From Caulobacter sp. 32-67-35 (lineage in GTDB: Bacteria; Pseudomonadota; Alphaproteobacteria; Caulobacterales; Caulobacteraceae), in assembly GCA_002280875.1 (NCBI GenBank), contig NCEV01000068.1, positions 1-34,967 of the forward strand: DNA of 34,967 bases, given 5' to 3'. The position numbers and the translations under genes were made by a program. The notes below the pieces were generated by a model. It ran no database searches. It was not told the origin of the DNA and saw only the letters and a program-made list of their open reading frames with translations. Positions 20,487 through 24,485 of this stretch are shown piece by piece. Positions within the stretch are counted from its first letter, which is position 1, and each line of letters begins with the position of its first letter.

Positions 20487-20569
20487 CCGGTTAGGTCACG
20501 GCGCGGCCATCAATGCGCCTGAAAGCTCGGCTGATGTCCGGGCCGCTTCCAAGGAGATGCTCCACACCC

Positions 20570-21897
20570 ATGCGAGCCCATCGCGCTTTGCTTCCCGCCC
20601 TGATCCTGCTGGCGGCCTGTTCGCCGGAAGGTCCGTCCAACGCCCAGGCGATCCCGGACCTGGCCCAGCCCAACCGCCGCGCGCCCAGCGACCCGGTCTC
20701 GATGAAGGCCTCGTTCGCGCCGGTCGTGAAGAAGGCCGCGCCGGCCGTGGTCAATGTGGCCAGCAAGCGGGTGGTGCGCCAGCGCGTCGATCCGTTCTGG
20801 GACTTCTTCATGGGCGGCGGCGGCGGCGCGCCCCGCGAGCAGGTGCAGGGCTCCCTGGGTTCGGGCGCCATCGTCCGCGCCGACGGGGTGATCATCACCA
20901 ACCACCACAATATCGCCGGCATCGTGGAAGGCCGGGGCGAGATCACCGTTCAGCTGGCCGACCGCCGCGAATTCATCGCCACCGTCCTGCTGGATGATCC
21001 GCGGGCCGACCTGGCCGTGCTGAAGATCGACACCAAGGGTGAAAGCCTGCCGGTCATGCCCATCGACGACCAGGAAGAGCTGGAGGTTGGCGATCTGGTC
21101 CTGGCCCTGGGCAACCCGTTTGGCGTCGGCCAGACGGTGACCAACGGCATCATCTCGGCCATGGCCCGCACCGACGTGGGCGCGGCCGATTTCGGCAGCT
21201 ACATCCAGACCGACGCCTCGATCAATCCGGGCAATTCCGGCGGTCCGCTGGTCGACATGGATGGCGACCTGATCGGCATCAACACCTTCATCATCTCGCG
21301 GTCCGGCTCGTCGAGCGGGGTGGGCTTCGCCATTCCCGCCGCCGTGGTCAAGCAGGTGGTCAACGCCGCCCTGGGCGGCGGTCATAGCGTGGTGCGTCCG
21401 TGGCTGGGCGTGAAGGGCCAGCCCGTCACCGCCGAGATCGCCCGCAGCCTGGGCATGCGCGCCCCGCAGGGTGTGCTGGTGGCCCAGGTCTATCCCGGCT
21501 CGTCGGCCGACAAGGCGGGGCTGCAGGAAAGCGACGTGATCCTGTCCATCGACGGCAAGGCCGTGAACGACGAGGGCGGCGGCGTCCGCCCCGCGACCAG
21601 AAGACCCTGACCGGCCGCAACCCGTTCGATGGCGCCACGGTGCTGAACCTGTCGCCCGCCGTCGCCCAGGACCTGAATGTCGACCCGTTTGTCGGCAAGG
21701 GTGTGCTGGTCAGCAAGATCGGCCAGGGCTTTGCGCTCAATGCCGGCCTGCGTCCGGGCGACTTCATCCGTGAGGTCAATGGCCGCACGATCAATACGGT
21801 GGCCGAACTGGTCGCCGTGTCGAACGGCGGCAACCGCGCCTGGACCGTCACCATCGAGCGGGGCGGTCAGCGCATCTCGGCGCGGTTCAACACCTGA
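20570..21897 (+). pseudogene. Do-like (HtrA/DegP) serine protease, frameshifted with an internal deletion
   Basis: An envelope quality-control protease of the HtrA family. The start at 20570 follows AAGGAG and opens a lipoprotein signal (LLAAC, Cys17). The trypsin-like domain is intact with His113 (TNHHN), Asp147 (DPRADLAVLKI) and Ser223 (INPGNSGGPLVD). PDZ1 starts with PQGVLVAQVYPGSSADKAGLQESDVILSIDGKAV, then at about 21577-21595 the sequence jumps. The first frame ends at 21610 after 346 residues, while a second frame resumes at RDQKTLTGRNPFDGATVLNL and runs a complete PDZ2 to 21897. About 30-40 residues of PDZ1 appear to be lost, and the frame is shifted. If the loss is real, the protease keeps its catalytic domain but has a broken PDZ1 and no PDZ2. 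Confidence 0.85.
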
Positions 21898-21955: not shown

Positions 21956-23254
<1,299 letters not shown>

Positions 23255-23266
23255 GCGAGTTAAAGC

Positions 23267-23300
23267 TTGCGCTCACCCGAAGATTGTTCTTTATTTGTTC
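23267..23300 (+). promoter_or_regulatory. LexA-box promoter of a small membrane protein operon
   Basis: GTTC-TTTATTT-GTTC at 23286-23300 is a perfect match to the alphaproteobacterial LexA operator (GTTC-N7-GTTC). It overlaps the -10 of a plausible promoter: TTGCGC (23267-23272), 17-base spacer, TTTATT (23290-23295). The box ends 21 bases before the ATG at 23322. It predicts SOS induction of the two small genes downstream. Confidence 0.75.
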
Positions 23301-23321
23301 TCGTTGGATTGCGAGAGCACG

Positions 23322-23549
23322 ATGGCGAAGTCGGTCGATTGGGAAAAGCGCGAGGCTGACCTGAAAGTGCGGCTCAAGCTCTTCGTCACCAATGCGACCA
23401 CCTATGCCTATGCGGTCATGGGCGCATCGTTCATCGAGCCCTATATCAAAGGCGCGGGTTTCAAGGCGGCGAGCTATGTAGGCATCGGGCTCGCGCTCGT
23501 GCTGCACGCGATAGCGTGGTACGCTGCCCCTCACGGAGAGAAGCCATGA
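23322..23549 (+). CDS. Small two-helix membrane protein under a LexA box
   Basis: I recognise no family. The 75-residue product starts MAKSVDWEKREADLKVRLK, a charged cytoplasmic-looking helix. Two hydrophobic segments follow (about residues 20-43 and 49-69, with VGIGLALVLHAIAWYAAP), joined by a short loop. GAGAG precedes the ATG. The frame is open further upstream to 23082, but that part is antisense to nothing and overlaps rarA. The size and shape resemble a holin or a small stress-induced membrane protein. Its stop overlaps the next small gene by four bases. Codons such as ATA and TTA-rich leader DNA differ from the neighbouring genes. Confidence 0.65.
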   Translation: MAKSVDWEKREADLKVRLKLFVTNATTYAYAVMGASFIEPYIKGAGFKAASYVGIGLALVLHAIAWYAAPHGEKP

Positions 23550-23680
23550 CGCCGCTTGAGGCCATGATCTACATCCTCGGGCCGATCTTGATAGCGGTCG
23601 GCATCTATGCGCTTTTCCTCAAGCGCGAGCTTGATGAGTTGCAAGCCCAGCGTCACCGCGAGACTCACTCCGCTGAATAA
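23546..23680 (+). CDS. 44-residue single-helix membrane protein
   Basis: A very short reading frame starting with ATGA overlap to the 75-residue gene and preceded by CGGAGAGAAG. The product is MTPLEAMIYILGPILIAVGI at the start (one membrane helix, about residues 7-24), then an amphipathic charged tail (LKRELDELQAQRHRE, about 26-40). The overlap, the ribosome binding site and the hydrophobic-then-charged layout support it as a real gene. It uses rare codons ATA and TTG. It would be co-expressed with the previous gene under the LexA box. Function unknown; a partner of the 75-residue protein is likely. Confidence 0.6.
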   Translation: MTPLEAMIYILGPILIAVGIYALFLKRELDELQAQRHRETHSAE

Positions 23681-24485
23681 GCCTTTTCCCTCGGACCAAC
23701 GTCCCCCCCGCCGTCCGCCCCTCGCGCCGAAACCCAAGGCCTCCGACGCTCCCATCACCCTGACCGAGGACGAGATCGCCTTGGCGCGGTCGTGGGTGAT
23801 CCATGAGGACGACAGCGTCATCGTGCTGAACAAGCCGGCCGGCCTGTCCAGTCAGGGCGGCCGCATCCAGGCCCATACGCTGGACGACCTGCTGTGGGCC
23901 TTCGCGCGTCCCGGCCGGCCGCGTCCGCGCCTGATCCACCGGCTGGACCGCGACACCTCGGGCGTCATCCTGACCGCCAAGACCAAGCCGGGGGCGGCGT
24001 TCCTGGGCAAGGCCCTGATGGGCAAGCGCTTTCGCAAGTCCTACATGGCCATCGTCGCGCCCGGCGCGCCGGAGCCTAAAGGCGGGATGATCGACAGTCC
24101 GCTACGACGCGAGTCGATCGGCCGCGAGGCCTATATGCGCGTCTGCCCGCCCGATCACGCCGACGCCGAGACCGCTCGCAGCCGCTATCGTACCCTGTCG
24201 TCCAACGCCACCGCCGCCCTGGTCGAACTGTCGCCGGACACCGGCCGCATGCACCAGTTGCGCGTTCACATGGCCTCGATCGGCCGGCCGATCTCGGGCG
24301 ACAGCCGCTATGGCGGAGCGCTTATGCTGGGCGGGACGGCGGTTCCGCGCCTGATGCTGCACGCCGCCCAGCTGGTGTTTCCGCATCCCGAAGGCGGCGA
24401 GCGCCGGATCGCCGCCTCGATCCCCGCCGACATGGCGACCATGCTGGAGAAGCTTGGATTGCCGCTCCCGGAACAGCGCGCCTAG
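23634..24485 (+). CDS. RluA family 23S/tRNA pseudouridine synthase
   Basis: It isomerises uridine to pseudouridine in rRNA or tRNA. The catalytic block LIHRLDRDTSGVILTAKT holds the active Asp (residue 105 from 23634), and LNKPAGLSSQGG (about 65-76) and DTGRMHQLRVHM follow the family pattern. No S4 domain is present, which fits a stand-alone RluA-type enzyme. The start is unclear: the frame is open to 23607, and ATG 23634 lies inside the 44-residue gene. The recognisable protein begins only near PFPSDQRPPRRPP (about 23683). The native start may have been lost; translation may couple to the small gene upstream. Confidence 0.85.
   Translation: MSCKPSVTARLTPLNKPFPSDQRPPRRPPLAPKPKASDAPITLTEDEIALARSWVIHEDDSVIVLNKPAGLSSQGGRIQAHTLDDLLWAFARPGRPRPRLIHRLDRDTSGVILTAKTKPGAAFLGKALMGKRFRKSYMAIVAPGAPEPKGGMIDSPLRRESIGREAYMRVCPPDHADAETARSRYRTLSSNATAALVELSPDTGRMHQLRVHMASIGRPISGDSRYGGALMLGGTAVPRLMLHAAQLVFPHPEGGERRIAASIPADMATMLEKLGLPLPEQRA

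Follow-up and report, generated by a model that had tools for sequence, protein, structure and literature searches.

A candidate SOS-controlled pair of small membrane proteins in Caulobacter and its relatives

Layout and coding capacity of the cassette

The window analysed here is the whole 34,967-nt stretch of contig NCEV01000068.1 from Caulobacter sp. 32-67-35 (GCA_002280875.1). Within it, two small overlapping genes on the forward strand, here called A and B, lie between rarA (21974–23254; Pfam MgsA_C and AAA, exact start uncertain) and an RluA-type pseudouridine synthase gene (23681–24485; Pfam PseudoU_synth_2, exact start uncertain, frame open from 23607), both on the same strand and both outside the cassette. 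Gene A (23322–23549) encodes 75 residues, with a basic N-terminal stretch of 25 residues, a predicted first transmembrane helix (TM1), a short loop, a second helix (TM2) and the tail PHGEKP. Gene B (23546–23680) encodes 44 residues with one predicted transmembrane helix and a charged helical tail, and starts inside the stop of A, the overlap being ATGA (23546–23549). A LexA box, GTTCTTTATTTGTTC, was read from the sequence at 23286–23300 on the forward strand and ends 21 bases before the ATG of A at 23322. The positions that an earlier, sequence-only reading of the window had given for the box, the two genes and their overlap proved correct base for base.

That reading had also placed the box over the −10 of a plausible promoter and had credited both genes with ribosome-binding sites. 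By eye, the box does overlap a putative −10 (TTTATT, 23290–23295), preceded at a 17-bp spacer by a putative −35 (TTGCGC, 23267–23272, forward strand) that is far from consensus; a sigma-70 consensus scan of both strands of 23150–23800 found no promoter, a result of little weight since 0.2 were expected in shuffles. The heptamer GCTTGCG, which contains the putative −35, is kept in all six copies at the rarA site. The ribosome-binding site of B (GGAGAG, 23535–23540, forward strand) is good, doubles as codons G72 and E73 of A and is placed likewise in most listed relatives, whereas that of A (GAGAG, 23313–23317) is by eye the weaker of the two. Around the B stop (23660–23700) the RluA-type gene of carriers shows no obvious ATG, and by eye a CTG overlapping that stop could be its start. 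Upstream of rarA, a DegP/DegQ-like protease gene (by eye, 20513–21897) is seemingly split into open reading frames at 20513–21610 and 21400–21897; its relative in locus L036 is a single frame of 481 residues, and the split in the window is either an assembly error or a broken gene.

AlphaFold modelled A as helices at residues 3–43 and 49–72 (mean pLDDT 86, pTM 0.67) and B as one helix at residues 3–42 (pLDDT 88, pTM 0.48), predictions that agree with the two-helix and one-helix proteins first proposed. When the A model was compared with PDB structures, 55 matches came up at E ≤ 10 and none at E ≤ 0.001. At every one of the 19 loci the N-terminus of A carried a net positive charge (+1 to +7), TM1 was weakly hydrophobic (Kyte-Doolittle 0.9–1.75 over the 19 loci) with polar T/T/Y residues, and TM2 was more hydrophobic. 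B has a short, neutral or acidic start and a charged tail whose net charge ranges from −5 to +4 and at most loci is not positive. Read by the positive-inside rule, these features suggest an N-in/C-in topology for A and an N-out/C-in topology for B; the former is better supported, and the latter, which draws mainly on basic residues beside the membrane, is uncertain.

Among five copies at the rarA site, dN/dS was 0.06–0.19 for A and 0.04–0.24 for the first 35 codons of B, figures that are ratios of rounded values, in most pairs with synonymous sites that approach saturation. For A it was 0.11–0.42 at a second site behind a glycosyltransferase gene and 0.05–0.24 at hisD. Both frames are conserved beyond synonymous drift, as the sequence-only reading required, and these low ratios support the view that close copies of A and B are real genes under purifying selection. 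B overlaps A by 4–17 nt in 18 of the 19 loci examined, the nineteenth being L160. In the window and at 15 of 18 loci, a start codon stands exactly 25 codons ahead of the TT motif; the exceptions are L034, which is shifted by one, L007 and L160, and several loci have more than one possible start. An alignment of 18 A proteins shows three invariant residues, A65, Y67 and E73, and near-invariance at R10, R17, K19, L20, Y30, P40, P70 and G72; overlap with the ribosome-binding site of B may explain the conservation of the G-E pair. B is much less conserved, with no invariant column over 18, and B proteins from different sites are grouped together by their position, their size and a faint similarity. 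The window's B, used as query, matched 9 of the 75 genomes of the genus, seven of them credibly. As counter-evidence to their being genes, A has an internal stop in G039, where B is open, and a frame shift in G265; both genomes are draft assemblies.

Distribution of the pair and its LexA box

Sixteen clear copies, all found with the window's A protein alone (E 9.5e-47 to 0.0016), are present in 14 of the 75 genus genomes: six at rarA, six behind the glycosyltransferase gene, three at hisD and one at prfC. A profile search, in which 14 of these copies were themselves rows of the profile, refound all 16 at E ≤ 3e-28, with the next match at E 0.0017. The three hisD copies are divergent from hisD (L047 and L048 were read, L046 was judged by eye), and the single other copy precedes a prfC-like gene. 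Three genomes of another family of the order have A-B after hemB, and one of them has it after ruvA as well; that ruvA copy is the weakest member (E 6e-4 when first found). Neighbours were named from Pfam matches of pieces, above the curated cut-off for RuvA, RuvC and the glycosyltransferase and just below it for HemB and HisD; the name prfC comes from a GTP-binding domain match only. A functional tie to rarA had been suggested by its position next to the pair. With 10 of the 16 genus copies elsewhere (six glycosyltransferase, three hisD, one prfC) and further copies at hemB and ruvA in the other family, we rejected this tie; rarA is one location of several and the link looks incidental.

Wider profile searches matched 15 of 348 genomes of the window's own family (14 credible, all in its genus), 6 of 60 of the other family of the order (three credible), 8 of 299 across the order (four credible: the window and three of the other family) and 12 of 385 sampled across the class (the window being the single credible one; of the eleven remaining, low-scoring matches five were read). 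In the sampled searches misses are possible, because only part of each genome's first-look candidates (15–19) was scored. Weak matches were discarded as chance after being read (L015, L030, L033, L067, L071, L073, L074, L075, L079, L082, L086–L088 and L258) or on score and frame alone (L025, L026, L031, L032, L068, L072, L076–L078, L080, L081 and L083). The match at L066/L160 (G058:C12; E 0.0017 to the profile) is a possible member, resembling by eye a diverged hairpin and one-helix pair; L160 has no LexA box, and its B was not found by the overlap rule used on the 19 loci.

The 3' end of rarA was located in 71 of the 75 genus genomes, and the 400 nt downstream were scanned in all 71, two intervals (L098 and L131) being shortened by contig ends. 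A-B lies between rarA and the RluA-type gene in six of the 71; five of these carry a perfect box and the sixth (G030) has one mismatch, while none of the 65 intervals without the pair has a box. At the second site, relatives of A follow a gene for a family-2 glycosyltransferase (Pfam Glycos_transf_2) and precede a gene starting MFAAF, the first part of which had no Pfam match. This glycosyltransferase was found in 70 of the 75 genomes, and one interval was read in each, a weaker second match in G072 being omitted. Six intervals hold A-B, five with a perfect box and the sixth with one mismatch, and the 64 without A-B again have none. Pooled over both sites, a perfect box accompanies 10 of 12 occupied and 0 of 129 unoccupied intervals (Fisher p about 1e-13, a value that is not corrected for the kinship of the genomes and so overstates the significance, but each site repeats the test separately). 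On its own the LexA box is weak evidence and barely counts: GTTC-N7-GTTC occurs three times in the window against 0.93 expected, and the other two (at 2887 and 8508) apparently fall, by eye, within coding sequence. The co-occurrence of box and pair at two different sites makes SOS control of A-B there a well-supported reading of the sequences.

At hisD, prfC, hemB and ruvA, none of the eight copies is preceded by a box within 250 nt, even with one mismatch allowed. SOS control would thus be a trait of the rarA and glycosyltransferase forms and not of the whole family. Joint conservation of pair, box and rarA neighbourhood, a question raised by the sequence-only reading, holds for the pair and the box at two sites and fails for rarA. 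The hisD-divergent copies L008, L009 and L010, which lack a LexA box, share by eye a partly palindromic, AT-rich segment immediately ahead of A, perhaps the site of another repressor.

Where the site is empty and compact, the last bases of rarA are often ATGA, at which the RluA-type frame seems to begin; in carriers rarA stops with TAG or TAA and some 440 bases are added. Because these boundaries are shared, they suggest a single original insertion at the rarA site. In a small tree of RarA/RluA that covers 65 of the 71 genomes and has many weakly supported forks, carriers are scattered among non-carriers, and exchange or repeated loss therefore probably followed. The GC content of 23255–23677 is 57.4% against a mean of 66.2%, as low as in 0.6% of equal-sized segments. 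The inference of acquisition that had been drawn from locally AT-richer DNA gains from this value, and low GC, scattered carriers and compact rarA–RluA sites without A-B together support acquisition or patchy inheritance of the cassette. Those carriers of the rarA form that have a name are Caulobacter hibisci KACC 18849, Caulobacter sp. D5 and three metagenome bins.

Known systems and possible functions

Scans of Pfam (A and B relatives), NCBIfam (the window's A and B) and PHROGs and PADLOC (A relatives) gave no convincing match; the best weak library match, of a single B protein to Pfam, had E 0.0011, and all weak matches came from single members. By the libraries scanned, the A-B family is apparently undescribed, and a search of open-licence literature found no paper on the pair. 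Two A proteins had no match in 50,697 phage records, none of 62 pattern matches in viral contigs encodes an A relative, and the plasmid search gave three Shinella matches (E about 0.7, 32% identity) that were discounted; a phage or plasmid origin was rejected on these searches with A. The immediate neighbours that were read include no lysis or mobility gene. Class II holins are small and have a two-helix hairpin layout, as A does, but A has no phage match and no lysis neighbour was seen.

Several known damage-induced proteins invite comparison. SidA of Caulobacter crescentus is described as a 29-residue, SOS-induced division inhibitor that binds FtsW (PMC4211646). It resembles A-B as a small inner-membrane protein (a location predicted for A-B) under LexA control in Caulobacter, but it is single-pass, whereas A-B consists of overlapping genes for 75 and 44 residues, with A predicted to be two-pass and B to have one helix. 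That A-B is SidA under another name was set aside on size, as SidA is described in that source. DidA of the same species, described there as a 71-residue protein with one transmembrane segment that binds FtsN and is SOS-independent (DriD), is likewise a damage-induced small membrane protein of similar size, the induction of A-B being suggested by its box; it is DriD-controlled and single-pass, in contrast to the LexA box of A-B and the predicted two passes of A. The SOS division inhibitors YneA, SosA (of Staphylococcus) and ChiZ are described as having one transmembrane segment, several with an extracellular LysM part (PMC6851548). They share with A-B their small size, membrane location and LexA control, but for A and B only short stretches are predicted on the periplasmic side. 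TisB and DinQ, type I toxins, are also LexA-controlled tiny membrane peptides; DinQ is reported to depolarise the membrane (PMC3567139), and the dinQ RNA is processed and antisense-controlled. A-B differs in having a presumed short leader (about 20 nt) and two overlapping protein genes; as to an antisense RNA, the two-strand scan of 23150–23800 gave no promoter-like site where only 0.2 would be expected.

The reading we favour, tentatively, is that A-B is an SOS-induced two-protein inner-membrane brake on division, working like SidA and DidA with no membership of either family claimed. LexA bound over the −10 would repress the pair and would be cleaved on DNA damage, giving one short-leadered mRNA that carries both genes. 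B would be translated by coupling to A and both proteins would be made together; their overlap suggests coupled translation and a complex. A would form a membrane hairpin with its basic N-terminal helix probably in the cytoplasm, and B a single-pass helix with a charged tail. The two would most likely assemble into a single small complex in the inner membrane, which would hold back division or septal wall synthesis for a time, until LexA is back. The sequences themselves show the genes, their overlap, the box, its co-occurrence with the pair, the selection and the predicted helices. LexA binding, induction, translational coupling, the complex and its topology are what we infer, and the division machinery as target is a guess; a role as division brake is put first because LexA-controlled small membrane proteins act in this way in Caulobacter and elsewhere. 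In its favour are the co-occurrence of box and pair, the low dN/dS, the overlap, the start spacing shared by most loci, the helical models and the SidA, DidA and SosA precedents. Against it, no library match to a division inhibitor was found, A is predicted to be two-pass where the precedents are single-pass, and the pair is dispensable, being present in 14 of 75 genus genomes. The eight box-less copies at hisD, prfC, hemB and ruvA also imply that the ancestral function need not have been an SOS function.

The main rival, which we regard as somewhat unlikely, is a depolarising or pore-forming SOS effector of the TisB/DinQ or class II holin kind, in which A would form the lesion and B would tune or localise it, leading to dormancy or lysis after heavy damage. 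The two predicted helices of A, its basic N-terminus and its weakly hydrophobic first helix with polar T/T/Y would suit such an effector, and SOS peptides of this kind are known, DinQ being described as depolarising the membrane (PMC3567139). The presumed leader of about 20 nt, however, is unlike the processed, antisense-controlled dinQ RNA, and the phage records and viral contigs yielded no relative of A, nor the neighbours read a lysis gene. It is unlikely, too, that A-B is a small regulatory complex that binds one enzyme or transporter of the inner membrane, outside the divisome, and modulates it, with SOS control recruited in some lineages only. The box-less members at hemB, ruvA, prfC and hisD would fit this, and the invariant A65, Y67 and E73 may mark a specific partner (E73 overlaps the ribosome-binding site of B), but there is no consistent metabolic neighbour and the pair carries its own SOS box at two different sites. 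A selfish or addictive cassette, with B restraining A and the SOS box timing expression, is improbable: patchy presence at fixed sites, low GC and the close A-B linkage (18 of 19 loci) would be expected of it, and the stopped A beside an open B in G039 fits retention of B and equally plain decay, yet no mobility gene stands among the neighbours read, A has no phage match and the three plasmid matches reach only E about 0.7. Chance, that is, spurious small frames beside a random GTTC-N7-GTTC, could be entertained from the three boxes of the window alone, but is exceedingly improbable given the conservation, the selection (dN/dS contradicts it for the genes) and the co-occurrence of box and pair.

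The small membrane proteins that serve SOS division checkpoints differ between bacteria. More tentatively still, A-B may represent a new class of two-subunit SOS membrane effectors, known to date from Caulobacterales alone, whose hairpin and single-pass proteins would be produced in concert and act as one complex; the unit, complete with a LexA operator, would come and go at fixed chromosomal sites and so give related species different division or membrane checkpoints. A patchy yet conserved, self-regulated cassette with matching empty sites lets the exchangeability of checkpoint modules be asked directly, and the pair lets one ask whether inhibition by two membrane proteins follows a mechanism other than that of SidA. 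Named carriers (Caulobacter hibisci and Caulobacter sp. D5) make A-B testable.

Other LexA boxes in the genome

The AT-cored form of the box, GTTCNNNWWWNGTTC, occurs 19 times in the genome of the window, and the reversed control does not occur. The neighbours identified, a minority, include lexA (Pfam LexA_DNA_bind; box upstream) and ssb, each beside one box, and one box stands beside a gene that is imuA-like by eye, for a scanned piece of which Pfam gave nothing. For comparison, a study of the C. crescentus SOS regulon reports 47 LexA-bound genes (PMC12700426). In locus L250, GTTC-N7-GTTC boxes at 939–953 and 1094–1108 both lie upstream of lexA (other strand, 182–919). A 15-mer identical to the A-B box, GTTCTTTATTTGTTC, is found at L249:8228–8242 (reverse strand; contig G000:C18), at the 5' end of a portal-like gene (Pfam Phage_portal below the cut-off, on a short piece) that adjoins a terminase gene (Pfam above the cut-off) and a DUF559 gene. 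By eye this region resembles a gene-transfer-agent cluster, and SOS control of the cluster is possible.
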